From a virus: DNA of 41,526 nt. This document shows positions 1 through 41,526 of this stretch, piece after piece. The stretch is from IMG/VR virus record IMGVR_UViG_3300028653_000003, positions 1 to 41,526 of that record. One strand, given 5' to 3'. The notes below the pieces were generated by a model. The model saw nothing but the letters and a program-made list of their open reading frames with translations, ran no database searches and had not been told where the DNA came from. Both the position numbers and the translations under genes were made by a program. The stretch's first letter is position 1. The number at the start of each line of letters is the position of its first letter.

Positions 1-127
1 CGGCGGCCAGGCTTAGCCTTGGGGCAGCAGCGTCAGGGGTTAATACCGACATCACCGAGCTTGCCGGTTTGACCACGATGCTTCCACTCACAGAGGGCGG
101 AACCGGAGCGTCGAACAGCACGGCGGC
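1..127. repeat. Direct terminal repeat (circular contig overlap)
   Basis: Bases 1-127 are identical to 41400-41526. A 127-base terminal identity is what a de Bruijn assembler using k=127 leaves on a circular contig, and it lies in the 120-bp repeat of the fibre gene. Joining 41526 to 128 keeps the fibre frame open, so the ends are an assembly break and not physical phage termini. Unique length is then about 41399 bases. Because the repeat unit (120) is close to the overlap length (127), the true number of repeat units may be under-counted. Confidence 0.93.
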
Positions 128-2060
128 ATTCAACGCTCTTTCACCAGCATCAATGAAAGGTGACCTCCTTGTGGGTACTGGGGCGAGCACTGTCCGCTTC
201 CCAATCGGGGCTGACAACCTAGTTCTCACGGCAGACTCAACACGGGTAACCGGACTTAATTGGAAGGCGGGGATTGGCGGGCAGTATCAAAATTTCGCGG
301 TTAACCCCAACTGCGCAAGCGGAAACACTAACTACACGGCATCGGCGGGCGCCATCACTCAAGAGATTGGTGCTGGAAATCTTGCCGTCCCATCCTCGGC
401 AGCCTCTTGTAAGTGGGTTACAACGACCGCAGGCGCGACCCTTACGAATGACCCATACACAATCATAAGCGGAGCAGGACCCGGACAACTTAACGGAGCC
501 GCTGCTTGTTACTTCAAAACCACGGCCTCGACCTTCTCGCTTGTTGCCATGAGCGGTGGAGTCGCTACGGGTAATGTTCAGGCGATCCCTGCTGGCGCTA
601 ATTTCGTCCCGGTAGCCTCTAACGAGGGATTCCCGGATTCTGGCACAATCCAGTGGCAGATCCAACACACTGGAGCGGCCTCAGATACCATCTACTTCGG
701 TGGGTGTTTCCTGGGTGATGCTAAAGGTGTGAACCTCCAGAACGTGAGCCAGGCACAGCTTCTCGGCACAGTAACAATTTCTGGGTGTGCGGCGCAGTTT
801 TCAACAACAAGCGCCTCCATGGCAGAATTTGGAACCCAGACCGGGTGCGTTTACACGCTAACCGGACAGGCGCTGGCACCAAGCACCAACATTCCCGCAA
901 TTAGATTTGCGTCTGTTCCCGCAGGCGAAATCGTTATCGAATATGAGGGCGGCCTGCAAACGTCCACGGGCGGATTTGAGTCTTATTTCCAGTTCTGGGA
1001 TGGTACTAATACTGCCAGAGAAAAGGTTACTCTTTATACCAACAATACCACTGGCATGATGCTGCCAGGGACCAGACAGTCCATGACGTACTCTAGCGGG
1101 GCGTCCAACGTGACGTTCTCGCTTCGCGGATCTGTAAGCGCAGGTGGCACGGCTAGAGTCAATAACGGAGGTGGTGGCTGGCCGCAGGGCGTGATTAAGG
1201 TCTACGTGTTTCCATCTCAGAACCAACTCGCCGTCACGCCGGACATGACGCCGGGGAGTTGGAGCGGGTATCACGACATAACCTGTCAATGGACACGGAC
1301 CAATGTGGCCTACGGTAACCCAGCCATTGATTCATCCTGTGCCTTGGTTGAACAATTAAATCAGAACTTTGGTTCTGTTACGAGCTACAACGACGGTACG
1401 CCCGGCAATAATTATCCGGGCATCGTCTTTACCCCAAAGAAGGCGGGAAATTATTTCGTTTGCGCACAACCACAGGTATGGAACGGAAGTAATGGGGGCG
1501 ACGCCACCGTTGCCTTGACTGCTGGCGGAGCTTTCCCCCCAATATCAGAACATTCAGTACAAATACCCACTTCTAGCAACGGCGGTCAGACAATGACGTT
1601 ATGTGGAAAAACATACGCGTCATCTACTGCCCCAGTCACACTCAGTCTTCAGATTAGGTCTGTAACTGGGACGACATATATCCTGGGCAATAATGCCTCG
1701 TATATGTCAGTCGGATGGACCATTTTCTACCTCGACAACTCGCTGCCGTCGCCGGTCGTACTTCCTCGCTTTACCTCTGCACAGGTGACCGTAAGTAATT
1801 CTGCCGCAGCGGTTGTACATCAAATCGGTAACTGGCTCTCTGTGGCAAACGGGGCTGGCGCTGGTTTGACCACGGGGACAATCACCGGATTCACCACTAC
1901 TCCAGACTGTTCTTGTACGGTTGTTGGCGCAGCTAGTACGTCGGCGTCATGGTGTGGGTTTACGGCAGACCCGACAAATACAACTCTTTTAATTACCCGA
2001 ACACGAGCGGGAGCGGCTGAAAACGGCAACGTCAATATCGGATGCACATGGAGTCAATAA
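1..2060 (+). CDS. Tail fibre, C-terminal part (continues from 39299..41526)
   Basis: This is the downstream part of the fibre gene that starts at 39299 and crosses the contig junction. Codons are in phase 3 here, the frame that joins exactly with the end of the window. An apparent ATG at 69 lies inside the repeat and is not a start. The joined protein is about 1386 residues if the repeat number is right. After the last partial repeat (GGTGASNSTAA) come beta-rich, Ser/Thr/Gly-rich segments typical of trimeric fibre shafts and receptor-binding heads. The segment has 14 cysteines; four are in the last 85 residues (DCSC, WC, GC), which is high for a phage fibre. The stop TAA (2058-2060) overlaps the ATG of the next tiny ORF. 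The fibre presumably binds a host surface glycan or protein. The exact domain family of the tip was not recognised. Confidence 0.85.
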   Translation, partial: AARLSLGAAASGVNTDITELAGLTTMLPLTEGGTGASNSTAAFNALSPASMKGDLLVGTGASTVRFPIGADNLVLTADSTRVTGLNWKAGIGGQYQNFAVNPNCASGNTNYTASAGAITQEIGAGNLAVPSSAASCKWVTTTAGATLTNDPYTIISGAGPGQLNGAAACYFKTTASTFSLVAMSGGVATGNVQAIPAGANFVPVASNEGFPDSGTIQWQIQHTGAASDTIYFGGCFLGDAKGVNLQNVSQAQLLGTVTISGCAAQFSTTSASMAEFGTQTGCVYTLTGQALAPSTNIPAIRFASVPAGEIVIEYEGGLQTSTGGFESYFQFWDGTNTAREKVTLYTNNTTGMMLPGTRQSMTYSSGASNVTFSLRGSVSAGGTARVNNGGGGWPQGVIKVYVFPSQNQLAVTPDMTPGSWSGYHDITCQWTRTNVAYGNPAIDSSCALVEQLNQNFGSVTSYNDGTPGNNYPGIVFTPKKAGNYFVCAQPQVWNGSNGGDATVALTAGGAFPPISEHSVQIPTSSNGGQTMTLCGKTYASSTAPVTLSLQIRSVTGTTYILGNNASYMSVGWTIFYLDNSLPSPVVLPRFTSAQVTVSNSAAAVVHQIGNWLSVANGAGAGLTTGTITGFTTTPDCSCTVVGAASTSASWCGFTADPTNTTLLITRTRAGAAENGNVNIGCTWSQ

Positions 2061-4089: not shown

Positions 4090-4500
4090 ATGAATCTCTC
4101 CCTTACCCGATGTCACTGGGATATAGACGGAATATTCGGAGAGCTGCACTCAGAGCAAAGCCACTTGATTTGTGAGACTCTCGAGCACGCATACCTGCAC
4201 GGCGATACTTACTTTGCTAAGATCCCGCCTGGGGGATATATCTGCAAGCGTAGCCAACACCGGCTCCATGGCATGCAGGAAGACTTCGAGACATTCGAGG
4301 TCATGGGGGTGCCCGGCCATACTGGCCTCTTATTCCACTGGGGAAATTTCAACCGGGACTCCGAGGGCTGTATCCTGCTCGGTGAGGCTATCAAGATAAC
4401 CGAGGACAAAGAAGAGATGCTCACTAACTCCAGGAGAGCATTTGCTTCTTTTATGGCTTTACAGGACGGTTCGGATGAGTTTACACTCATAGTATCCTAG
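4090..4500 (+). CDS. DUF5675-like protein, candidate lysis enzyme (136 aa)
   Basis: The protein matches the DUF5675 pattern seen in many phage lysis cassettes: C-E-T-L-E near residue 30, IPPGGYICKRS at about 45-55, VPGHTGLLFHWGN at about 74-86, and DSEGCILLG at about 90-98. The spacing H-x-G-N...S-x-G-C resembles the catalytic His/Cys arrangement of YkuD-type L,D-transpeptidases, so a peptidoglycan-active role is plausible but inferred. A strong AGGAGG site precedes the ATG. It is the first gene of a probable lysis group that continues with small membrane proteins and a lipoprotein. No other endolysin was recognised in the window. Confidence 0.7.
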   Translation: MNLSLTRCHWDIDGIFGELHSEQSHLICETLEHAYLHGDTYFAKIPPGGYICKRSQHRLHGMQEDFETFEVMGVPGHTGLLFHWGNFNRDSEGCILLGEAIKITEDKEEMLTNSRRAFASFMALQDGSDEFTLIVS

Positions 4501-4770: not shown

Positions 4771-4940
4771 CCCCGAATCAGTTATTCGTAATAGCTTTGC
4801 TTAAGCAGCTGGGGGTTATCCTAGGAATTCTTGCTGCTGCTCACGTCGATAACCGGGTATTCCCCTGGATGAGAAAAAATGCCAACCGAACCGAATCAGC
4901 CGCTCCCCACGACGAATCAACCCGCGACGTACGCCAATAA
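4767..4940 (+). CDS. Small single-span membrane protein (57 aa), holin/spanin candidate
   Basis: GTG at 4767 overlaps the preceding TGA (GTGA). Residues 6-27 form one membrane segment (LFVIALLKQLGVILGILAAA) interrupted by KQ. A polar, charged tail follows (WMRKNANRTESAAPHDES). The 3' end overlaps the start of the next gene by 62 bases in another frame. Position next to a candidate endolysin and a lipoprotein suggests a lysis role (holin or inner-membrane partner). This is inference from context only. Confidence 0.55.
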   Translation: MTPNQLFVIALLKQLGVILGILAAAHVDNRVFPWMRKNANRTESAAPHDESTRDVRQ

Positions 4941-5274
4941 AGTCGTAGGGGATCTCATGGGCCTGGGTGAAACCGCAGTGGAGACAGCCGCGGAGGCTGC
5001 TGCTCCCTTTCTCGCTTACCCCGTGATTAAACAGATATGGGAAGCGCTCCTACATTGGATCTTTGTCACGCTCGGTGGCGCACTCGGAAAGCTTGCGGGA
5101 TACGTGGTGCTAGACATCGAGGAGTATCAAGCCATCAAAACAGCGTCGGACACCCTGCTCGCCCTGGATGCCGCGCGCACTGTAGGAGATCAACATGCGA
5201 TCCAAACGGCCAGTGATGCAGCTGATGATGCTGCCGCTGCTCTTATACACTATTACGGCTCTATCCAGTCTTGA
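4879..5274 (+). CDS. Putative membrane protein in lysis cassette (131 aa)
   Basis: The N-terminal 25 residues are Pro/Thr/Asn-rich. At about residues 45-80 lies a hydrophobic stretch (IWEALLHWIFVTLGGALGKLAGYVVL) that could span the membrane once. The C-terminal third is an Ala/Asp-rich helix. Small phage proteins of this design near endolysins are often holins, but the family was not recognised. The 3' end overlaps the next (lipoprotein) gene by 80 bases. Confidence 0.6.
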   Translation: MPTEPNQPLPTTNQPATYANKVVGDLMGLGETAVETAAEAAAPFLAYPVIKQIWEALLHWIFVTLGGALGKLAGYVVLDIEEYQAIKTASDTLLALDAARTVGDQHAIQTASDAADDAAAALIHYYGSIQS

Positions 5275-5593
5275 GGGCTGCGGAAGTCTTCAGGTCCCTG
5301 TCGTGATTAAAGACGAGTCGGTTTATTATCTGAAGGGCACCACGCAGCTCCCGCCTAGTGACGACGACCCGACATACGCCACCATGATGCACTTCCTGAC
5401 CTCGGGTAAGACACCAGTGACCCGCTATCAGTGGAATGCCATAAGCAAGGGTAAGGCATGCATGGATCTCTCAGCATTTGCAGATTTCAATGTTGAGATT
5501 GCGAAACTGTGCAGCCAGGTCCCGTGTAGCTATAAGCTCCAGGCTATTTTGCCGAGGTTAGTCGCGAGGCTGAAGAGAGAGTCTCTCTACTAG
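5195..5593 (+). CDS. Lipoprotein-like, o-spanin candidate (132 aa)
   Basis: The start ATG is supported by AGGAG six bases upstream. Residues 1-29 look like a lipoprotein signal: MRSKRPVMQ, a hydrophobic core, then LEGC with Cys 29. The Glu in the lipobox is unusual. The mature part begins with a short polar linker and VVIKDESVYYLKGTTQLPP. Embedding inside the 3' end of the upstream membrane gene recalls Rz/Rz1 arrangements, so an outer-membrane spanin-like role is possible but unproven. The last 50 bases overlap, tail to tail, the 3' end of the minus-strand Wzy_C-like gene. Confidence 0.55.
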   Translation: MRSKRPVMQLMMLPLLLYTITALSSLEGCGSLQVPVVIKDESVYYLKGTTQLPPSDDDPTYATMMHFLTSGKTPVTRYQWNAISKGKACMDLSAFADFNVEIAKLCSQVPCSYKLQAILPRLVARLKRESLY

Positions 5594-6737
5594 GCTTTCG
5601 TACCAGTGCCTCGGCTAATCCGCACACGAGCACAATGCATAAGCAGTGTATTGGCATCCGCAGGGGATAGTTAAATAATCCAAGCGTACAAAAGCCCATG
5701 AGAGCACCAAAGAGGGCCGGGCGAGGCCACGCCACACTTGCGAGACGAGCCACAGCAGGTGCTATGCACAGCCAGCCGACGATCCCCCCCTCGGTTAGGA
5801 TCTGTAGCCAGTCGTTGTGGAGCCACATGAAATACTCTCCACCAAAATGATTAGTGGTCACTTGCTGGATGGGCAGGAGTATCTGAGAGGTTGAAAATCC
5901 CATGCCGAGTAGTGTGCTGCCACTCTTATCCCAGCAATCAATGGCCATACGCCAGATCATGAATCTTCCACTGTCCCCCCACAGTGCACCGCCTAGCAGC
6001 TTGTGGCTTACTAAAAGCATCAAACCGGCCAGTAAAAGGGTGCCTAGACCACTCAAAAGCCATGCTTTTCGAGGGGTCCGAGCCACAAAAACAGCAGCTG
6101 TAGTCACGCCCAGTACTCCCCACGGTACACTCGCCTCAGTTCGCCAGATCATGAGCAGGGTAAGCAGCCAGCTCCCGCACATGAAGGCCATCTTTGCGCG
6201 AAAGTTATTACGACATATGGTGCCCGCTGTAAACCCCCAGGCGATAGGAAGCAGGCAGGCTAGTAGTCCAGCCGCCATGCTGGGGTTGCCGAACCATAAC
6301 CCATTGAGTGCTGGGTGTGGCAGAGTAACAAGTGCAAATGTGCCTACGGCCCATACGAGCGATAAAAAGACCAGTATCCCCCGCTTCATGCTCTGAGTAA
6401 TTAGGGCGAATAGGGCGGTGCACGCCACAACCTCGAGCACTCCCGAGAAAGCATTCTTTTGGAGGGCCATGAGTGTAATGATGTCGTACGATCTCAGAAA
6501 GGGCTGATACGGCCAGGCCGCTATCGCGAGCATACTAACCAGACAGTAGAGCAGGCCAGGGAAATAGAACCAGCTCGTGCGCCTCGCCACCCAGCCTGAA
6601 AACCCAGCGGCCGCGAGAGTAAGTATAAGCGCCCACTTCGATAGCCAGGTGGCACTCCAGAAGTTTCCCACCCCAAAGAATAATACCGCTACGCCTACTG
6701 CTAAGATAAGCCACGATTCCCACGTCATCTTTCTCAT
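5544..6737 (-). CDS. O-antigen ligase/polymerase-like (Wzy_C) membrane protein (397 aa)
   Basis: This is an integral membrane protein with about ten predicted spans. Its C-terminal half has the Wzy_C / O-antigen ligase signature: SGRFMIWRMAIDCW (about residues 256-269), LLGMGFSTS (276-284), then a periplasmic loop with WLHNDWLQILTEGGIVGW (305-322). These Arg and His positions are those expected of the WaaL/Wzy glycosyltransferase fold. The start at 6737 overlaps the nuclease stop (ATGA) and has GGGGGA upstream, so the 16 residues before it are excluded. It is the last gene of the early block. In temperate phages such enzymes alter host O-antigen (for example phage D3). Here no lysogeny genes are seen, so receptor alteration or superinfection exclusion during lytic growth is the best guess. 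Confidence 0.72.
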   Translation of the reverse strand: MRKMTWESWLILAVGVAVLFFGVGNFWSATWLSKWALILTLAAAGFSGWVARRTSWFYFPGLLYCLVSMLAIAAWPYQPFLRSYDIITLMALQKNAFSGVLEVVACTALFALITQSMKRGILVFLSLVWAVGTFALVTLPHPALNGLWFGNPSMAAGLLACLLPIAWGFTAGTICRNNFRAKMAFMCGSWLLTLLMIWRTEASVPWGVLGVTTAAVFVARTPRKAWLLSGLGTLLLAGLMLLVSHKLLGGALWGDSGRFMIWRMAIDCWDKSGSTLLGMGFSTSQILLPIQQVTTNHFGGEYFMWLHNDWLQILTEGGIVGWLCIAPAVARLASVAWPRPALFGALMGFCTLGLFNYPLRMPIHCLCIVLVCGLAEALVRKPSRETLSSASRLTSAK

Positions 6738-7042
6738 GATAATCCCCCGTATAATAGTTTCAGATCGGCCAGATGTTTCGGCCACGTTTTAGGTGTGCTG
6801 GAAAGACTCATGCCCCCGGCTCTCGTGTGCCGGTCCAGTTTGAGCTGCTGTAAAAGTGTTGGGACAGAGCCGTCAACTTTGAGTTCGTTGCGGATACTAT
6901 GGCCCTTGAGGCAGATAATCAGATCCGCAACACCCTTCCGCGCCCGCTCCTGGGTTGCTATAATGTCCACATCAGCCCCAAAAGCTAGCTTCAGATCCTC
7001 AATAACTTTTTGCTTAAACTTTCCTTCAGCTTGCTGGGCCAT
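6734..7042 (-). CDS. VRR-NUC-like PD-(D/E)XK nuclease (102 aa)
   Basis: The small protein carries GVADLIICLKG followed by RNELKVDG and then QLKLDRHTRAGG. This is the core of VRR-NUC-type PD-(D/E)XK nucleases (D in the ADLI motif, then E-L-K). Phage members are thought to act on replication or recombination intermediates. ATG at 7042 is chosen because GGAG lies a few bases upstream and it overlaps the polymerase stop by 17 bases; a longer reading from 7081 is less likely. It is coupled by ATGA to the Wzy_C-like gene downstream. Confidence 0.72.
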   Translation of the reverse strand: MAQQAEGKFKQKVIEDLKLAFGADVDIIATQERARKGVADLIICLKGHSIRNELKVDGSVPTLLQQLKLDRHTRAGGMSLSSTPKTWPKHLADLKLLYGGLS

Positions 7043-8762
7043 ATTTCTCCAAATCAAACATGTTAGGGCCACTCTCGACACTCACGTCCATATCGAGCAG
7101 CTTTTTATCCCGGTGTGCCGCGATCATAATCCGCTTTATTTCTGGCAACAAGTGCATATCCGGTGGGGCCATGTTGATGAGGAGTTCATCGTGCACCGGC
7201 AAAACCATAAACGATTCTGGCCCCGCATATTTCTTGAGATACGCCCCGATCTCACAAATCGCCAGTTTTAATATCTCCGCACACCCACCTTGAATTCTGT
7301 AGTTGAATGCCTTGTATTCAAACCCAGGGTCAAAGTAGAAGCGTCTACCGAGCCAGTCCATTCCGTATGGCTTACACGTGCGCTGGAGCATGTAGGAGTA
7401 TGCCGCGGTCTTCTGCCCCTGCTCGTCGATAGCATCAGCGATAGTCCTTGCCACGCGCTCACTCACGCCTAAAGTCTGCGCAATGCGCGGTATTCTTGCC
7501 CCGTATTGTTTGGCAAAGCGTCCGTTCTTAGCCAGACTCCGTAGCACCCCAGCGATGTCGGCCACTTCCTGATGCAGATCCGCACCCTCTTGTATGCGCT
7601 TAATCATGGGTAGGTCCTCGGCCTCGTCAGCACTCTTACGCAGTTCCATCTGCGAGTAGTCCATGGAAACTATCACGCAGCCTGGATGCGCGATGAATGC
7701 CCGCCGCACTGGAAACTGTGGGTCTTCCTCCTCGTCCGTTGACCAGTTCTGGCAGCTAGGATCTGAGATGCTCATGCGGCCTGTCGTTGCTCGGTTCTGG
7801 TTGATCGAGGGATGAATGATGCCGTTATGCTCAAACTCTAGGAATTTTTCCCAGTAGGTGGACAGACGCTTTTTTGAGCGACGTATACGTAATAACGCTG
7901 CAACCACACTATGTCCTTCACTGCCCTTAAGACTATCCTCTGTGAAAGAGGCATTGCCCAGTTCAGTCTGACCATAATGTATTCCATTGGCGCCAAAGAT
8001 GGGTTGGAGAGTCTTTCGGCTATCCACGAATGGTACAGACGTAAGAGCCTCGAACTCTCTTGTGGCTTCGACCAAACACCTTTTCTCATACTCTACTCCT
8101 CTGTTACAATACCCGACGTCTACGAGTAGCCCGTGCCGCTCCATATCGAATAGATGTGGCAGCACCGCTTTCTCCAGCTGGACGACCGGCTTAATCTTTG
8201 TGGGACTTGATACGTCCCAGTGCTTGAATACTTCCACCTGATGCTGTCGTAACTTCCACGATAGCCACGCATCTTGCTCCACGTACGGGACAATCAATTC
8301 GTCGGGCGCCTTGTGGTACATGTTCTTATTGCCCCGCTGCTTTAACCACTCAAGCATCGGTTTATACTTGCTCTCGCCTATTCTCTCAGCACAGGCCTGA
8401 AGACTGTAGGATAGATAGTTGTTCTTCTCGATCCGGGCATTAACCTCGGAGTCCCAGACTTCACCCATCACCTCGGCATCAAACTGAGTGTGCAAGAATC
8501 CCAGCTCGAATTTGGCGTTATGAGCACAGTACTTGATGCGTGGATTAGAAAAGAACAGCCTTATGAGCGAGGGAAGCAGGGGATCTTTGTCCAGTTTTAC
8601 GCTGAACCTATCGCCCCGGGTGTTCGTGAACCCCAGGATGAATGCCCTAGCCCCGCTGAATGGACGTAGCCCATCGGTCTCAAAATCCATGCCGACAGCA
8701 CCCCCAGGTCCCTTGGAGATGTTGTCAGCATGGATTGCAAAGTCTCTGAGACTAAGAAGCAT
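7026..8762 (-). CDS. DNA polymerase, family A (Pol I-like, 578 aa)
   Basis: This is the replicative DNA polymerase of the phage, with an N-terminal 3'-5' exonuclease. Exo I is DFE (D26, E28). Exo II is HNAKFE, with E86 where D is usual. Exo III is YVEQD (Y160, D164). In the polymerase part, motif A is DYSQMELR (D368), motif B has R408, K412, F416 and Y420 with RxxxK(x7)YG spacing, and motif C is HDE (524-526). The residue equivalent to E. coli Pol I 762 is Phe (F416). At 578 residues it is shorter than T7 gp5. No ribosome site is visible before ATG 8762, and no other start fits after the upstream in-frame stop. The leader has competing inverted repeats. Confidence 0.95.
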   Translation of the reverse strand: MLLSLRDFAIHADNISKGPGGAVGMDFETDGLRPFSGARAFILGFTNTRGDRFSVKLDKDPLLPSLIRLFFSNPRIKYCAHNAKFELGFLHTQFDAEVMGEVWDSEVNARIEKNNYLSYSLQACAERIGESKYKPMLEWLKQRGNKNMYHKAPDELIVPYVEQDAWLSWKLRQHQVEVFKHWDVSSPTKIKPVVQLEKAVLPHLFDMERHGLLVDVGYCNRGVEYEKRCLVEATREFEALTSVPFVDSRKTLQPIFGANGIHYGQTELGNASFTEDSLKGSEGHSVVAALLRIRRSKKRLSTYWEKFLEFEHNGIIHPSINQNRATTGRMSISDPSCQNWSTDEEEDPQFPVRRAFIAHPGCVIVSMDYSQMELRKSADEAEDLPMIKRIQEGADLHQEVADIAGVLRSLAKNGRFAKQYGARIPRIAQTLGVSERVARTIADAIDEQGQKTAAYSYMLQRTCKPYGMDWLGRRFYFDPGFEYKAFNYRIQGGCAEILKLAICEIGAYLKKYAGPESFMVLPVHDELLINMAPPDMHLLPEIKRIMIAAHRDKKLLDMDVSVESGPNMFDLEKYGPAS

Positions 8763-19284: not shown

Positions 19285-19338
<54 letters not shown>

Positions 19339-19552: not shown

Positions 19553-19900
19553 ATGCGTTTGTTGTTTCTTGCACTTTTGCTGATGTCCACTGCCGCGGTA
19601 GCGGATTTCAATCCAGCGCCCACAAGCGTAGGGTTATATAATTTTTCAACAGTCTCTGTGTCTAATCTCGCGGCCTCGACAATCGCTGCGAGAAACTTAT
19701 ACAGGGCCGGTTTAATAATTCAGAATAACGGTGGGGTGTCCGTAGTCATTAAGCCTGGAAGTGCGCCACAAAATGCCACTGATGGCATAGTATTGACCGC
19801 AGGGACCATGATCCAGTTAGTACCACCGCCAGTAGATTCTATCTGGGGCCTGAGTTCTGGGGCAAATGCGAAAGTCGTTTTAATCGAGAACGTTAAATAG
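19553..19900 (+). CDS. Exported structural-like protein with signal peptide (115 aa)
   Basis: Residues 1-17 are a clear Sec signal (MRLLFLALLLMSTAAVA), with cleavage likely before DF. The mature part resembles small phage structural proteins of the type RAGLIIQNNGGVSVVIKPGSAP..ATDGIVLTAG. These normally lack a signal peptide and occur as head or fibre accessories. It is the first gene of the rightward late block, just before the small terminase. No good ribosome site is seen, and the nearest promoter candidate would give an almost leaderless message. Confidence 0.65.
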   Translation: MRLLFLALLLMSTAAVADFNPAPTSVGLYNFSTVSVSNLAASTIAARNLYRAGLIIQNNGGVSVVIKPGSAPQNATDGIVLTAGTMIQLVPPPVDSIWGLSSGANAKVVLIENVK

Positions 19901-19909
19901 AGGTTGTGT

Positions 19910-20488
19910 ATGAAAGGATTCCAGATGAAAAGTTTGATCCTGGTTCTTCTCCTGAGTTTATTCCCGCTATCCGCGCTTGCAGATCTTGAGGGGGCACCGT
20001 ATATCCCGGAGATAGATGCGAGGTTTAATGCCGTAGAGCAGGGGAATCACTTCAAGACGACTTGTGGGAGCGTGGGGGGTGTGGGCTCATGCGATGGGCA
20101 CTGGGCACGGCAACTTGTGTCAGCCACGTATGACTTCTCAACTTTGACTGGCTCGAGCACACTCAACGCTGGAATTTATAACCTTGGTGTGAGTATCCCG
20201 GCGAATTCTATAATCACTGAAAGTGCGCTGTATTCGGGGATTAAGCCTAGCTCGGTGAATAGCGCTACCCTGGGATTTTACTGCCAGAACAGTGCTGACA
20301 TAATCACGGACACGCTTTACTCTAGCTACGGGGCCGCGGGTGTGGCTATCAACGGGTCATCGTCGGGAGCTACCGTAGGCAACTTCAAGTACATCACGGC
20401 GAAATGTGATGTGCATGCAAAGATCGCCACGGGGAATCTTATCGCGGGCCGCGTGACGGCATTCGTGGAGTACTGGACCCATCACTAG
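19910..20488 (+). CDS. Exported Cys-containing structural-like protein (192 aa)
   Basis: Two starts are possible. ATG 19910 (GAGGT upstream) and ATG 19925 (AAAGGA upstream) both lead into a Sec signal (KSLILVLLLSLFPLSALA, then D). The mature part is beta-rich with IYNLGVSIPANSIITES, a motif found in phage structural proteins. It carries four cysteines (CGSVGGVGSC, FYC, AKC) that could form disulfides outside the cytoplasm. It follows the first late gene by 9 bases. Role unknown; an exported virion or cell-surface component is inferred. Confidence 0.65.
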   Translation: MKGFQMKSLILVLLLSLFPLSALADLEGAPYIPEIDARFNAVEQGNHFKTTCGSVGGVGSCDGHWARQLVSATYDFSTLTGSSTLNAGIYNLGVSIPANSIITESALYSGIKPSSVNSATLGFYCQNSADIITDTLYSSYGAAGVAINGSSSGATVGNFKYITAKCDVHAKIATGNLIAGRVTAFVEYWTHH

Positions 20489-34891: not shown

Positions 34892-36729
34892 TGTCATACG
34901 GTTTAATGCCACAACCACCTTTGTCTGAGAGTCCCACCCTATCGCAGGGGCCTATTCCTACTGATAGTACTCTCGTAGACAAGGCAGCCAATGAGACCAC
35001 GGCACCGTTTGGCCCACAGACTCCGCTAGGGCAACCGATAGCCCCACCAAAGAAAGAAGCTGAGGAAGAGACTGGGTTTAGAGCAGAGCATGGCCCGCAC
35101 CCATCGGCGTGGGAATCTTTTATTGCTCAGCCTATCCGAGAGGAGCTGCATACTCTTATCCCGCCTAAGTGGCCAGAAGTTCAAGGTCGGATGCTCGCGC
35201 CCGATGTGGCCAACAAATTATTCGAGGACCGAGAGGTCCCGTACACTTCGGCTGTAGATGAGAATATTCTAATCATGGAGCGCAATGACGCCTATAAGCG
35301 CCGTGATAATGCTGAATGGGCTGCTCAGAGACCCATGACTACTGCGGGACGAGTGGCGAGCACGGCAGCTGGATTTGTTGGGTCGCTAATTAATCCGACA
35401 AATCTTGTGATAGGCGGAATGAGCGGTGGGCTTGCTGATCTCTTGCCAATCGGAGCACCCTTTGCTGCAAAACTCGGCGCACACTATGGCTCAAATGTGC
35501 TGGGATTTACCGGGACTGACCTCCTCAGAAATTATATTGAACAACAGTACGGCGCAAAACCCAGGTCTGTTGGGCAGGCCCTGGAAGAAAATTTAGCCCC
35601 AGCCGCATTAATGACTGGCGTTGGTTTGCTCGCTCGTGCGGCATTAAAGAGGGGCGCGCGTAGATTTCTCAACGAGCAGGGGGGAACTCCCGAGAGAGAT
35701 ATCAAAGGCGTAAAAGACAATGTTACGACCCTGGATAATAATGAGAAAATCCAGCCCCCACCATTTAGGCCTATCCTTAATGATCGAGCTAATGGCGCGT
35801 CCGTGGGGCCTAGTGGGGAGAAGATACCAGCTACAATAGTAACTTCCCCTCTTGAAACGGCCAAGCTTTACGGCGCCACACACTCAGATGGAACGCCAGT
35901 CGTTCATGAACATAACTTGGGGCCGGGCACGGAGAGACAGCTGACTGATAACCGACAAAGGGCGGCCAACTCTGTCGCGAGAGCGTCGGATACCCCTGGG
36001 CAAGTTCATGAGGCTACTCTACCCGAGGGGTCTAAACTTTTAGACATAGACAAGAGTGTGGCCGAGGATATTGGATCTCCTGAGAGTTTACTCAAGGCCA
36101 TAGAAGAAAAGACGGGCATTCCACTTGAGGCGGCGGCATCCCGTGGCACAACTGTCAAAGACATTATCGCCAACTTAGGAGACATGGCAGGGGGTGAATT
36201 TGAGAAAGGTAAGGTTGTTCCTGAAGACATTCTGGCACAGATTCAAGAAATCGCTAAGTCTAAAGGATATTCAGGCTATCAATTCTCTGGGTTAGATGAG
36301 CAGGGGAATGTCACGAGCAGAGTTGCTCATGTGTTTGAGGCAGACAAACTTCAGATGGGCGAGTCTCACGTGGCTGACCCTAAATCGACACCGGACATTT
36401 ATAGCCAGGCCCCTGAGGAAACTCCAGGGCCTAAATCAGCGGGCGCTATCGAGGGGGAGAAGGCAAAGCAACAAAATTATGACCCCAATATCCAAGCAGC
36501 CCTTGATAAGATCAAGAAGACTGCAAGGACACTCCACCCTGACGAGATGGATAATCAGATCAACGAGATGCAGGCGTCACTTGATGAGCACAAGGCTAGG
36601 CTCCAAGAACTTTCAAAAGAATCCCCTGCTGCCAAAGAAGAGTTAGACGCTCTACGCGAAGATGAGGCGCACGACAAAAGAATGATGGATGTCGCCAAGA
36701 GAATCATGAATTGTGGAGAATCAGAATGA
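34891..36729 (+). CDS. Internal virion protein with ADP-ribosyltransferase-like segment (612 aa)
   Basis: The first 75 residues are Pro-rich. Residues 150-250 contain Gly/Ala-rich hydrophobic helices (AGFVGSLINPTNLVIGGMSGG), possible membrane-active parts of an ejection protein. Residues of about 323-490 resemble an ADP-ribosyltransferase fold: LYGATHSDG (326-334), LGPGTERQLTDNRQRAANSVA (343-363), QVHEATLPEGSKLLDID (371-387), GYSGYQFSGLDE (459-470), VFEADKLQ (481-488). The usual YHGT is YGAT here, so activity is uncertain. The C-terminus is coiled coil. Together with the next gene it may equal a split T7 gp16. Confidence 0.62.
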   Translation: MSYGLMPQPPLSESPTLSQGPIPTDSTLVDKAANETTAPFGPQTPLGQPIAPPKKEAEEETGFRAEHGPHPSAWESFIAQPIREELHTLIPPKWPEVQGRMLAPDVANKLFEDREVPYTSAVDENILIMERNDAYKRRDNAEWAAQRPMTTAGRVASTAAGFVGSLINPTNLVIGGMSGGLADLLPIGAPFAAKLGAHYGSNVLGFTGTDLLRNYIEQQYGAKPRSVGQALEENLAPAALMTGVGLLARAALKRGARRFLNEQGGTPERDIKGVKDNVTTLDNNEKIQPPPFRPILNDRANGASVGPSGEKIPATIVTSPLETAKLYGATHSDGTPVVHEHNLGPGTERQLTDNRQRAANSVARASDTPGQVHEATLPEGSKLLDIDKSVAEDIGSPESLLKAIEEKTGIPLEAAASRGTTVKDIIANLGDMAGGEFEKGKVVPEDILAQIQEIAKSKGYSGYQFSGLDEQGNVTSRVAHVFEADKLQMGESHVADPKSTPDIYSQAPEETPGPKSAGAIEGEKAKQQNYDPNIQAALDKIKKTARTLHPDEMDNQINEMQASLDEHKARLQELSKESPAAKEELDALREDEAHDKRMMDVAKRIMNCGESE

Positions 36730-39296
36730 GTCTTGAAACATGCATCATTGAAGCTAAGAAGTGGGCTGAGGAGAACTCCGAACTTAAGCTTCGCCCCGCT
36801 GACATAGAATACTTAGGACGACTTGTGGCCGCGGCCAATGATGCCGGTGTAACCCCCCCTGAGAAAATGTCCCTCATGCAGCTTGTGGTGGACAAGAAAA
36901 TACTGGCCAACCAGCTTGCGGCGAGGGGAGAGAAGTATTTAAATTCATCAAAGCATGTGTCCTCTCTAGCTAATATCATAAAGAATATCGAGACCTGGAA
37001 AGAGGCCGGGCACAATAAATTAAATGCAGCAGCCGATGCTTTCTGGGCGCATGTCACGGGAGAGGCACCAAGGCCTGGGATTGCCGTGAACAATGATCCT
37101 CTGGCAGCTCGACGTGGGGCTATGAGCACGTTCTTTAATGCCCTAGAAAACTCAATGCCCCCAAAGCTTTTGAAAGTTTTTAAGTCACTCGATAAAAGTG
37201 ACCGGATGACTTTTGACATTATCCAGGAATTGGATGCCCTCAGGAATAAAGGTCAGTCTGGGCTAAGTGGGAATGACATGGCTCTACAAATTGCTCGGCA
37301 TCTGAGGGGCGCCCAAGATTTTGTGTTCGGGCAGGCTAAGGCTTTAAACCCATACCTTAAGGAGAATGAGCTTTATCTATTCTCTCGCTCTCATACCCGT
37401 GATCTTATCTCAAAGGCTGGAGTAAACCAGTGGGTAGAAGATGCCATGGCAACATATGGCAACGCCTTAATCGGTGACGTTGCCAAAAAGCGGGGCCTGC
37501 TCACAAAAGTTTTCAAAGAAATCACGTCAGGCCTTCCCCCTGAGGGTAATGACAGGTTCGAGTATACACCCGGAGATGAAGGCAGTCGGGCTAAGAAATT
37601 GATGGGTAGTCGAGTATTTGTGGCCAACGATTGGAAAGCCGAGGCAGCCTACAACGCTAAGTATGGCGATAGTCTTTATAATAGCTACATGAAGCAGTCT
37701 ATACGCATGGCCGATTATGTGGCAAATACGAATAAGTGGGGCACTAAACCCCCAGAAGCTTTTGCTAAATTATTTCAAGCCGTGGCTGATTCGATCAAAG
37801 ACCCCGCAGAGAAAGTGCGATTTTTAAAGAACGAGGACCGGCTCAAAGAAGGTTTTGAGAGCACTCAAGCTCGTAGAGGGTCTGAGGTCTGGACGCGCAA
37901 GGGCCAGGCTGCTCAAGCACTGATGGGCACCGAGAATTTGTCGATGCTAGGTAATCATTCTCTACGAGTGATGAAAGCTCCAGTCGCCGCGATGTCACAG
38001 ATCAGAGATGCTTATGGTCTAAATATATTTGAGCAGGTGACCCAGATCGCGAGAGGCATGGGCAAGGTCCTGGCCAATTTTGGAGATGCTGGGGCCTCTG
38101 AGATGCAGCGGTTAGGGGGTATGTCTACTTCTGTCAGTAGGGATGTCACTGGGCAGATAGCGGCGGGGCGAAAAGGGGTGCCGCTTGGAGCCACAGCTAA
38201 GGTTTTAAGGCTTGCGGGCAAACTTACTCTCGCCGACTGGACCACCAACGCTTACAAAACCATGATGCTCGATATGGATACCAGGCTACTGGGGGATCAT
38301 GCGGGAGTAGGCTATGATAAACTAAATGTGCTCACGAAAGAACTCTTGAGCCGGTATAATCTGCACGGACCTCGTTGGGAAGTCTTGAGACAGGGGCTTA
38401 ATAAAGGCCGAATAACCCCCTCTGATGTGATGAGGATCCCTGACGAGCACTTTAAGGGCATGCTCGGAGAGCGAGGCTCCCCCAAGGAAATACTGCGGTC
38501 AAAGACTGAAATGGCCCAGGATCTAGGTACTATGCTCAATGACCGGGCATCGCATACCGTTGGAGAGAGTAGTTCTGCTTCACGTGCCAAGGCATACGGG
38601 CTTGCCGATCTGAATACGGCCCCAGGTATTGTGCGCTACTGGTTAACCCAGTTCAGACAGGCATCCATGGTTCAGGCTGAGTTGACCCGTCGGACATACC
38701 GGAGTGGGGGGGGAAATACCTCGAATATCAGCGGGACCTTGCAGCTCATGGTTGGGTCCATGTTCATGGGTATGATCGGGCGGCAGGCTCAAGAGATCGC
38801 AAAGGGTCGGGAGCCATTAAATCTAGCTGACCACAAGATCCTCGGGGAGGCCCTGCGAGAATCTGGTATTTTTGGATTCTACGGGGATATCGTGGCTGAT
38901 CTACTCCAGGCTGATAATCCGTTTAAGGAAAAAAGCCTGCTCATGGGGTCTGTCTTAGGGCCATCATTTGGCACGCTAGCTCAAGCTGGAGTGGCCGGTG
39001 GGAAAACTATAGCTGGTTTGACCCAGGCGGTAAAGGGAGAGAGTTGGAAAGCTGGGGGTGCGGCCAAGCAGTACGGGGGCGCGGAGTGGGCTAAACTCTT
39101 GAACTCTTTGACTCCTGACCAAAATGTGTTTTATCTGAAAGCCGCGATTGACTACATGTTCATGAACGAGATTCATGAGTTCATGAGTCCCAATGGTTAT
39201 CTTGGACATTTACGCGCAGGAATGCAAAAATCGAAAAATATTAGTGGTAACCCCCAACAGTTCTGGGGCATTGGTGGTAAGAACTACTGGGAGTGA
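36726..39296 (+). CDS. Internal virion protein, gp16-like C-terminal part (856 aa)
   Basis: ATG 36726 overlaps the previous stop (ATGA) and has GGAG upstream; a TTG at 36711 is less likely. The protein is large and helical, with hydrophobic segments near residues 425-440 and 690-730 (LQLMVGSMFMGMIGRQ). It ends just before the fibre gene, as T7 gp16 does. It resembles large ejection proteins of T7-like phages. No transglycosylase motif was seen in either half. Confidence 0.75.
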   Translation: MSLETCIIEAKKWAEENSELKLRPADIEYLGRLVAAANDAGVTPPEKMSLMQLVVDKKILANQLAARGEKYLNSSKHVSSLANIIKNIETWKEAGHNKLNAAADAFWAHVTGEAPRPGIAVNNDPLAARRGAMSTFFNALENSMPPKLLKVFKSLDKSDRMTFDIIQELDALRNKGQSGLSGNDMALQIARHLRGAQDFVFGQAKALNPYLKENELYLFSRSHTRDLISKAGVNQWVEDAMATYGNALIGDVAKKRGLLTKVFKEITSGLPPEGNDRFEYTPGDEGSRAKKLMGSRVFVANDWKAEAAYNAKYGDSLYNSYMKQSIRMADYVANTNKWGTKPPEAFAKLFQAVADSIKDPAEKVRFLKNEDRLKEGFESTQARRGSEVWTRKGQAAQALMGTENLSMLGNHSLRVMKAPVAAMSQIRDAYGLNIFEQVTQIARGMGKVLANFGDAGASEMQRLGGMSTSVSRDVTGQIAAGRKGVPLGATAKVLRLAGKLTLADWTTNAYKTMMLDMDTRLLGDHAGVGYDKLNVLTKELLSRYNLHGPRWEVLRQGLNKGRITPSDVMRIPDEHFKGMLGERGSPKEILRSKTEMAQDLGTMLNDRASHTVGESSSASRAKAYGLADLNTAPGIVRYWLTQFRQASMVQAELTRRTYRSGGGNTSNISGTLQLMVGSMFMGMIGRQAQEIAKGREPLNLADHKILGEALRESGIFGFYGDIVADLLQADNPFKEKSLLMGSVLGPSFGTLAQAGVAGGKTIAGLTQAVKGESWKAGGAAKQYGGAEWAKLLNSLTPDQNVFYLKAAIDYMFMNEIHEFMSPNGYLGHLRAGMQKSKNISGNPQQFWGIGGKNYWE

Positions 39297-39298
39297 CT

Positions 39299-41526
39299 AT
39301 GAGAAAACTACTCGTCGGGCTTAGTCTGGTTGTTGCGATTGTCTGCTGTGTGCCGAATATCTTGCACGCGGTGGTGACGAATACTGCGACTGAAACAATC
39401 ACGGGGCTTGGGAATAGCGTAGCCACGTCATTTCCTATTACGTTCGACTTCCGGGATAATGCCTGGGTCAACGTAACTCTCTACGATACCACGACGAATC
39501 CCGCGACGGTAGTGGCAGTGAGTCAGGGTGGCGGGGCCGGGAACTTTACGGTCTCGGGGGGAAACCCAGGGACCGCGGTACTCATGGGCACGGCGCCCAC
39601 GTCGCATCAGTATCTGGTGATCAGCCGGAGTGTGCCGCTCACCCAGGGTGTGGTTTTCAATCCGGCGAGTATATTCCCATACCAGGGCCTGAGCGCAGAA
39701 CTTGACAAGGTTACTCTGGCATTACAGAGCGTGAATGCTGGTTTTGAGTCATCCACACCGGGTGGAACTCCCCCGGCGGGATCGAGCGGGAGTCTCCCTA
39801 GCCCTGGCGCTGCCTACGATTTCATCGGGTGGAATGCCGCGGGCGCGAGCACCGTCAACGCAACGGTAGCGTACGACGCTGGCCAGACAACTTTCGTGGT
39901 GGGCGACGGCATAGTTTTTAATGGCGCGGGCTGGGCTACCTACCCGATGACCTCAAGTAATCTGGTTAATACGATCAACCTAGGTAATAGTCCCCTAGGC
40001 CCTGGCGTGGGTGGATCGGGTGTCTCTAACAGCGGTCTCCTCACCTGGGGGCACAACGCCCTAACCTTCACTACCGCGGGCGTCACTAATTTGATGCTCC
40101 CACAGTCTGGCACCGTGCTCACGGGCACCGCGACGAATAACAACGTAGGCTCAACGATCGTCGAGCGGGATTCCAGCGGAAATTTCACCGCGGGGACTAT
40201 CACCGCAGCCCTCTCTGGAAACGTCACGGGCAACGTGACCGGAAACGTCACGGGGAATACCTCGGGCACCTCGGCAAATGTCACAGGCATCGTTGCTATA
40301 GGCAACGGAGGGACCGGCCAGACTGCTCGCCAAACCGCTATCAACGGGCTGCTTGACACAGGCTCAGGTGTCTCGGGCGACTATCCCCGGTTCAACGGGA
40401 CCGATGTAACTCTCACCCACATTATCACCGGAGATCTCCCGCAGAATATCCCATACTCCAAAATGGAGCAGCAAACCCACAACGCTCTCCTCTGGTCCGA
40501 TAACTCGGGTGACGAGGGCGTGATCGCGACAAGTTCAACGGCGGGATATGTTTTGACTTCTGACGGTGTGCGCCCACGTTGGGCAACCCCCACAGGTGGG
40601 TCTGGTGGGGGCATCCCATACGGTGCTGACACTGGTGTGGCCGATGCTTACGTAGTTCTAAACCCAGTTCCATCGGTAACATCATACATCGTTGGGCAGC
40701 CAGTTTCTTTTGTGGCTGCAAATGCCAACACAGGTGCGGCCACTCTTGATGTGTTCGGACTGGGCGTGGTGGGGCTTACTGCGCAAGGTGGTTCTGCTCT
40801 CACCAAAGGAGACATCATCGCGGGCGCCCTGGTCCTCGCCATATACGATGGCACAAAGTTTCAGATGATCTCGCCACAAGGTATCGCGGTTTCTCCGAAC
40901 ACAGTAAATACCACCGTAAAACGAGACAACGCCGGGAATTTTAGCGCCAACATAATCACCGCGGATATCATTGGCTCTGCGAGCACCGTTACAGGCACAG
41001 TTCCTCTCACAAATGGCGGGACCGGAGCGTCGAACAGCACGGTAGCCAGGTTCAACCTCGGGGTAGCAGCGTCAGGGGTTAATACCGACATCACCGAGCT
41101 TGCCGGTTTGACCACGATGCTCCCCCTCACAGAGGGCGGAACCGGAGCGTCGAACAGCACGGCAGCCAGGTTCAACCTTGGGGCAGCAGCGTCAGGGGTT
41201 AATACCGACATCACCGAGCTTGCCGGTTTGACCACGATGCTTCCACTCACAGAGGGCGGAACCGGAGCGTCGAACAGCACGGCGGCCAGGCTTAGCCTCG
41301 GGGCAGCAGCGTCAGGGGTTAATACCGACATCACCGAGCTTGCCGGTTTGACCACGATGCTTCCACTCACAGAGGGCGGAACCGGAGCGTCGAACAGCAC
41401 GGCGGCCAGGCTTAGCCTTGGGGCAGCAGCGTCAGGGGTTAATACCGACATCACCGAGCTTGCCGGTTTGACCACGATGCTTCCACTCACAGAGGGCGGA
41501 ACCGGAGCGTCGAACAGCACGGCGGC
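39299..41526 (+). CDS. Tail fibre, N-terminal part with Sec signal peptide (continues at window start)
   Basis: The start ATG has a good ribosome site (GGGAG, about 6 bases upstream) and follows the stop of the internal virion gene by 2 bases. Residues 1-24 form a textbook Sec signal peptide: RK, a hydrophobic core LLVGLSLVVAIVCCV, and a likely cleavage after LHA. Next comes a region resembling the T7-type fibre attachment domain: TATETITGLGNSVATSFPITF, then YLVISRSVPLTQG, then LDKVTLALQS, at about residues 27-145. Gly/Ser linker, NVTG repeats, a first GGTG motif and four 40-residue repeats follow. The attachment domain has no internal Met start, so the signal peptide appears to be part of the translated protein. 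The order after internal virion proteins matches T7 gene 17. No stop occurs before the window end; the frame continues at base 128. Confidence 0.88.
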   Translation, partial: MRKLLVGLSLVVAIVCCVPNILHAVVTNTATETITGLGNSVATSFPITFDFRDNAWVNVTLYDTTTNPATVVAVSQGGGAGNFTVSGGNPGTAVLMGTAPTSHQYLVISRSVPLTQGVVFNPASIFPYQGLSAELDKVTLALQSVNAGFESSTPGGTPPAGSSGSLPSPGAAYDFIGWNAAGASTVNATVAYDAGQTTFVVGDGIVFNGAGWATYPMTSSNLVNTINLGNSPLGPGVGGSGVSNSGLLTWGHNALTFTTAGVTNLMLPQSGTVLTGTATNNNVGSTIVERDSSGNFTAGTITAALSGNVTGNVTGNVTGNTSGTSANVTGIVAIGNGGTGQTARQTAINGLLDTGSGVSGDYPRFNGTDVTLTHIITGDLPQNIPYSKMEQQTHNALLWSDNSGDEGVIATSSTAGYVLTSDGVRPRWATPTGGSGGGIPYGADTGVADAYVVLNPVPSVTSYIVGQPVSFVAANANTGAATLDVFGLGVVGLTAQGGSALTKGDIIAGALVLAIYDGTKFQMISPQGIAVSPNTVNTTVKRDNAGNFSANIITADIIGSASTVTGTVPLTNGGTGASNSTVARFNLGVAASGVNTDITELAGLTTMLPLTEGGTGASNSTAARFNLGAAASGVNTDITELAGLTTMLPLTEGGTGASNSTAARLSLGAAASGVNTDITELAGLTTMLPLTEGGTGASNSTAARLSLGAAASGVNTDITELAGLTTMLPLTEGGTGASNSTA
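41003..41526 (+). repeat. 120-bp in-frame tandem repeat in tail fibre gene
   Basis: Four full 120-bp units start near 41003, 41123, 41243 and 41363. A fifth, partial unit starts at 41483 and diverges after the AACAGCACGGCGGC stretch. Each unit encodes 40 residues of the form LTEGGTGASNST..ARxxLG.AASGVNTDITELAGLTTM. The first unit is the most divergent, and the last two are nearly identical. This pattern indicates recent homogenisation or expansion. The unit length is a multiple of three, so copy-number change would lengthen or shorten the fibre without breaking the frame. Confidence 0.95.

Follow-up and report, generated by a model that had tools for sequence, protein, structure and literature searches.

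The tail fibre encoded across the ends of the window (the whole stretch of DNA analysed, 41,526 nucleotides, a single IMG/VR virus record) is, on balance, best explained as a receptor-binding fibre that would be exported by Sec, stabilised by disulphides and docked on the virion after lysis, in an HTVC010P-type podophage that probably infects Bdellovibrionota; we hold this reading to be somewhat likelier true than false. The capsid gene of the window phage is of the HTVC010P type, and the gene upstream of the fibre (36711-39296) has matches in phrog_684 and among the internal virion proteins of podophages. The fibre gene comes after the genes for such internal proteins in the structural operon, as it does in T7-like podophages. 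End-to-end comparison of the record identified a terminal repeat of 127 bp (1..127 = 41400..41526), located within a stretch of the fibre gene (41001-41526) made up of 120-bp tandem repeats. The fibre ORF was therefore joined over the record ends (39299-41399 plus 1-2060) into a polypeptide of 1386 aa, in which the copy number of the 120-bp repeat is uncertain. A length of 127 bp is a common assembler k-mer, and the record of another phage carrying a related tip gene (G043) likewise ends with a 127-bp overlap. Since the overlap has k-mer length and lies inside the tandem repeat, closure of the record is likely and the number of shaft repeats uncertain. The fibre had no match in Pfam, and its features are collected in Table 1.

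Table 1. Features of the fibre gene, in window coordinates; residue numbers refer to the joined 1386-aa product.
Feature	Position	Strand	Basis or remark
Shine-Dalgarno GGGAG for the 39299 start	39289..39293	+	sequence, anti-SD energy
Stop TGA of the upstream virion-protein gene	39294..39296	+	sequence
Predicted Sec signal peptide of 24 codons, with the cut predicted after A24	39299..39370	+	own scorer
Two in-frame GTG codons, possible internal starts, no Shine-Dalgarno	39371..39376	+	register of other phages' fibre starts
T7-like tail-attachment (adaptor) domain, the genome's only copy	39371..39757	+	profile, PHROG, hhalign, fold
Fibre shaft, GGTGASN-type repeats; 120-bp tandem repeat enters the terminal repeat	39758..41399	+	
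Shaft continued through the terminal repeat (127 bp), read in frame from base 3	1..443	+	
Beta jelly-roll (carbohydrate-binding-module-like), residues 849-947	444..740	+	94 aa, Z 9.9 to EngBF domain
TNF-like domain of the tip (residues 952-1104), homologue of the Bd2734 C-terminal tip (PDB 8okw)	753..1211	+	
Conserved 52-aa tip motif SWSGYHD.TC.W.RTN, query of the census	1230..1385	+	
C1q/TNF-like domain, residues 1117-1281	1248..1742	+	Z about 11
C-terminal cysteine-containing domain and stop	1743..2060	+	related domains in small signal-bearing Bdellovibrionota proteins

Translation from the ATG at 39299 yields the N-terminus MRKLLVGLSLVVAIVCCVPNILHA, followed by VVTNTATET..., with an n-region charge of +2, a mean h-region hydropathy of 3.11, an LHA cleavage site and a predicted cut after A24. 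According to our own scorer, which uses a von Heijne-type weight matrix, only 3 of the 10,036 start codons in the pooled phage loci head an equally strong N-terminus. The strong Sec-type signal peptide that the preliminary description had placed before a T7-like domain is thus confirmed as a sequence feature, and it joins that domain precisely at the domain start. A lipoprotein reading of the same N-terminus was rejected, the lipobox being absent (A at -3, I at -2 and V at -1 before C16). The ribosome site, described earlier as good, bears scrutiny as well: GGGAG lies 5 nt upstream of the ATG and pairs with the anti-SD at -6.8 kcal/mol, on a scale where 18 genes of the window phage have a median of -8.3 kcal/mol and random sites -2.7. 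The statement that no alternative start precedes the domain has to be corrected, as GTG 39371 and GTG 39374 are in frame there and could give rise to a cytoplasmic form, though both are without a Shine-Dalgarno (+0.1 kcal/mol).

The approximately 125 aa after the signal constitute a T7-like attachment domain, as judged from a phage-fibre profile (E 1e-38), from PHROG tail fibres that align to it in the same register, from hhalign comparison with T7 gp17 (E 2.6e-5) and from a PDB fold search in which the first seven matches were all podophage tail complexes (LME-1, Carin1, P-SCSP1u, Kp7, E1004, VP1, T7). A profile search located a single copy of the domain in the window genome. None of the about 29 homologues of this domain that were examined (ten annotated phages, seventeen IMG/VR loci and further cases) presents a signal peptide, and each starts at the domain. 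The closest of them belongs to a near-complete relative, G001, with a capsid 61% identical to that of the window; its attachment gene has a ribosome site of its own and no coding sequence ahead of the domain, and its start Met aligns with A24 of the window fibre. Cleavage after A24 would hence leave the N-terminus of a normal fibre after Met removal. Single-protein scans of IMG/VR with the attachment domain or the upstream virion protein returned no relatives, and a scan for further fusions of signal and attachment domain, using the window and G001 as queries, returned G001 alone. Given that no attachment-domain homologue carries a signal, the direct fusion has been seen once and is unique so far.

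The signal can be accounted for by the opposite end of the fibre, which belongs to a family that regularly bears signals. The 52-aa tip motif recurs with 63% identity in a separate gene of the phage G009, which has its own signal peptide and sits after a signal-less attachment gene. A scan of IMG/VR with this motif identified 16 loci, and the set stayed the same when the scan was repeated with full-length tips. All 16 viral relatives have a signal peptide at the start of the tip ORF; of the 17 tip sequences (window included), 14 passed the strict signal rule, and three fell just short of it on inspection by eye. In each of the 16, the tip ORF also starts no more than 16 nt from the stop of the upstream tail-module ORF, and because of this adjacency the tip genes look like late tail-operon genes. 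The genomes carrying them are of several kinds, most without an HTVC010P capsid, so that the tip gene moves as a module. Three phages (L128/G043, L129/G009 and L132/G038) have a T7-like attachment gene without a signal and, immediately downstream of it, the tip gene with its signal. Since G043 combines this split pair with the capsid family of the window, the window fibre can be regarded as the fused form of an attachment and tip gene pair. A plain fusion would put the signal between the two parts; in the window, the signal leads the new N-terminus. All three traits of the tip family are kept in the window fibre: the 52-aa motif with both invariant cysteines, the N-terminal signal and the coupling to tail genes.

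The 14 cysteines previously counted in the downstream fibre were recovered, all of them past residue 800. Mature tip ORFs contain 1.73% cysteine, threefold the 0.58% of neighbouring ORFs. Among 16 aligned tip sequences, which share ancestry and therefore do not represent independent events, the pair 1129/1147 is present in 16, the pair 1188/1235 is complete in 13 and wholly missing in 3, and the pair 870/936 is complete in 9 and wholly missing in 7. All three pairs hence co-vary perfectly, with no exception. This paired gain and loss is the behaviour of disulphides and, as a pattern in aligned sequences, is evidence that the tip folds in an oxidising compartment.

Residues 849-1386 were modelled with AlphaFold (mean pLDDT 70), and residues 952-1104 of the model superimpose on the tip that ends Bdellovibrio bacteriovorus Bd2734 at its C-terminus (PDB 8okw), with Z 21.2 and 1.9 A over 147 aligned residues (25% identity), and the match is found by sequence profile alone (E 4.8e-13). 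Bd2734 is one of 21 mosaic adhesive trimer (MAT) fibres, which are trimeric and signal-bearing; the sampled MAT fibres are displayed on the predator surface, and one was shown to bind prey glycans (PMC10769870). The one MAT-like N-terminal domain compared (L170) had no match in the phage proteins, and hhalign comparison of it with the attachment profile gave none either (probability 0.2). Acquisition of the signal along with a MAT N-domain was accordingly rejected, that domain being absent from the phage protein. Because the conserved MAT N-terminal domain is missing, the window fibre is not a MAT, and is better described as a phage fibre with a MAT-type tip. Taken over both halves of the protein, a search for the same signal in homologues, as the preliminary description had proposed, gives a divided answer. 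The outcome named there as refuting, homologues that all start past the signal region, is literally what the about 29 attachment domains present, whereas signals are the rule among tip relatives (16/16). Real export of the fibre is thus unsupported by its attachment-domain homologues and supported by the tip relatives, the cysteine pairing and a nearest solved relative that is a surface-displayed Bdellovibrio adhesin.

With respect to the host, the only match among bacterial genome contigs was a prophage in a Bdellovibrionales MAG (L147-L149, G035 contig 76), where chromosomal genes precede a tRNA-Arg gene (5739-5815), phage genes and an integrase gene (47161-48282). The prophage carries a signal-bearing tip gene with further signal-bearing ORFs behind it, and relatives of one of its flanking genes were identified in 60 of 114 genomes of Bdellovibrionota, though the family of this gene is widespread. 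Searching across Bdellovibrionota with the 52-aa motif returned this prophage alone. The full tip profile matched parts of proteins, mostly signal-bearing, in 16 of 369 Bdellovibrionota genomes (15 beyond the prophage, with weaker matches), and the capsid profile matched 3 of the 369. From one prophage and the sharing of domains, we infer that the window phage probably infects Bdellovibrionota, which are predatory bacteria. The C-terminal cysteine domain of the phage tips also occurs in five small signal-bearing Bdellovibrionota proteins (L180, L183, L185, L187 and L196; open frames of 185-239 aa).

Signal-bearing ORFs following attachment genes form a wider pattern. In G001 (L111, 5051-10908), four consecutive signal-bearing fibre-like ORFs follow the signal-less attachment gene, two of them matching PHROG tail or virion families, and G007, G008 and vir555 each present one such ORF after the attachment gene. 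A lipoprotein-like ORF follows the four of G001. In vir555 (L002, BK063671) the ORF spans 5485-7791 and encodes 768 aa downstream of a signal-less attachment gene; its record names a Methanomicrobiales host, an assignment that may merit a second look. In the stretches fetched from Pelagibacter-like relatives the pattern was absent, save for two short signal-bearing ORFs further on. Elsewhere in the window, paired ORFs at 19553-19900 and 19904-20488 (probable start ATG 19925) present very strong signal peptides, with cleavage scores of 14.7 and 12.6, before the terminase genes. The second of these has several cysteines, and the pair has no relatives among the loci collected. Just ahead of it, at 19285-19338, lies a perfect 7-bp tandem repeat, CATAGTC, in 7.7 copies. 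Two further ORFs overlap in different frames (4879-5274 and 5195-5593) and might be a spanin-like pair; the second contains LEGC and starts with a hydrophobic stretch. A DUF5675 gene (4090-4500) is nearby.

Judged from sequence, export of the fibre is likely, with both export and oxidation well supported by the comparisons made, and virion completion outside the cytoplasm would be its most likely consequence; for the full sequence of export and docking after lysis we consider the case about evenly balanced. Expressed along with the late tail genes, the fibre would pass through Sec, lose its signal by cleavage after A24 and fold in the periplasm as a disulphide-bonded trimer, since a tip of the Bd2734 type requires an oxidising compartment. 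Virions without fibres would meanwhile assemble in the cytoplasm, and upon lysis, perhaps in the confined bdelloplast, mature fibres would dock on the tails by the T7-like domain. Because an exported attachment domain cannot reach a cytoplasmic tail, the fibre, if part of the virion, must dock post-lysis. P22-type tailspikes bind tail-less particles in vitro, so that such docking is chemically reasonable, and release within the prey-enclosed bdelloplast would hold the fibre concentration high. In the relatives the job would be divided, with an attachment protein joining the virion in the cytoplasm and a separate exported tip joining later.

An exported fibre need not be a virion component. It may instead be a phage-encoded adhesin on the surface or in the periplasm of the infected predator, masking receptors against superinfection or altering prey binding in the manner of the MAT adhesins with which it has its tip in common. 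We regard this as unlikely, though far from negligible, and the same holds for the blocking of receptors or action on neighbouring cells that the preliminary description had suggested. Such a role would suit both the standalone signal-bearing tip genes of the relatives, which lack a tail-attachment domain, and the place of the tip's nearest solved relative, the MAT adhesin Bd2734, on the predator surface (PMC10769870). It would, however, leave unexplained why a T7-like attachment domain, useless on a cell-surface adhesin, was kept with no MAT N-terminal domain, why it resides in the genome's sole fibre with such a domain and why the tip genes are located in late tail operons. The virion reading is favoured because the attachment domain is retained and is unique in the genome. 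Less probable still is that the gene has two products, a minor or major cytoplasmic virion fibre starting at GTG 39371 or 39374 and an ATG 39299 product exported for another purpose or wasted. Both GTG codons are in register with the starts of all homologues, yet they lack the ribosome site that the ATG has (+0.1 versus -6.8 kcal/mol), and a tip from a signal-bearing, disulphide-patterned family would be ill suited to a cytoplasmic form. That the hydrophobic N-terminus is accidental or non-functional, or the record mis-assembled, with no export at all, is very improbable, since neither the signal-less state of the other attachment domains nor the domain start and ribosome site of G001 outweighs a chance of about 3 in 10,000 start codons, a junction exactly at the domain start, the signals of all 16 relatives with that tip and the co-variation of cysteines.

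Tailed-phage virions are taken as completed in the cytoplasm. If at least some of the receptor-binding machinery is produced elsewhere, as a fibre family that always carries a signal and a disulphide pattern implies, then either virions are finished later or the fibre has another job, which suggests that some tailed viruses complete or use fibres outside the compartment of particle assembly. More tentatively, and at somewhat less than even confidence, the window may represent a phage group whose receptor-binding fibre is routinely Sec-exported, oxidised in the periplasm and joined to fibre-less virions post-lysis, with tips exchanged with the prey-recognition fibres of predators. One homologous tip links phage fibres to Bdellovibrio MAT adhesins; the analysis also yields a concrete set of phages that are candidates for infecting predatory bacteria, and a direct way of testing where fibre and virion meet.

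Searches of open-licence papers turned up no Sec-exported tail fibre with an attachment domain beyond the precedent of PblB. PblA and PblB, tail proteins of streptococcal prophages that serve as surface adhesins, resemble the window fibre in being phage tail proteins working outside the cell; PblB of S. pneumoniae NTUH-P15 has a predicted signal peptide and S. mitis PblB is released through phage-induced permeabilisation (PMC4508584). They differ in belonging to long-tailed phages of Gram-positive hosts, and the passages describing them mention neither a disulphide-patterned tip family nor a fused short-tail attachment domain (PMC4508584). The Uetakevirus tailspikes (SPN1S, phiV10) have a related attachment domain, at about 30% identity, but are without a signal peptide. 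T7 gp17-type tail fibres share the attachment domain by profile, PHROG register, hhalign and fold, but the known members begin with the domain and are synthesised and attached within the cytoplasm, whereas the window fibre has a Sec signal ahead of the domain and a disulphide-patterned tip. The MAT fibres, finally, have the same overall plan, namely a signal peptide, a beta-rich domain of about 130 aa, a shaft and an adhesive tip that is variable in MATs, and the TNF-like tip of Bd2734 is homologous to that of the window (PMC10769870); the window fibre differs from them in being encoded by a phage, within a tail operon, and in having a T7-like attachment domain in place of the MAT N-terminal domain.
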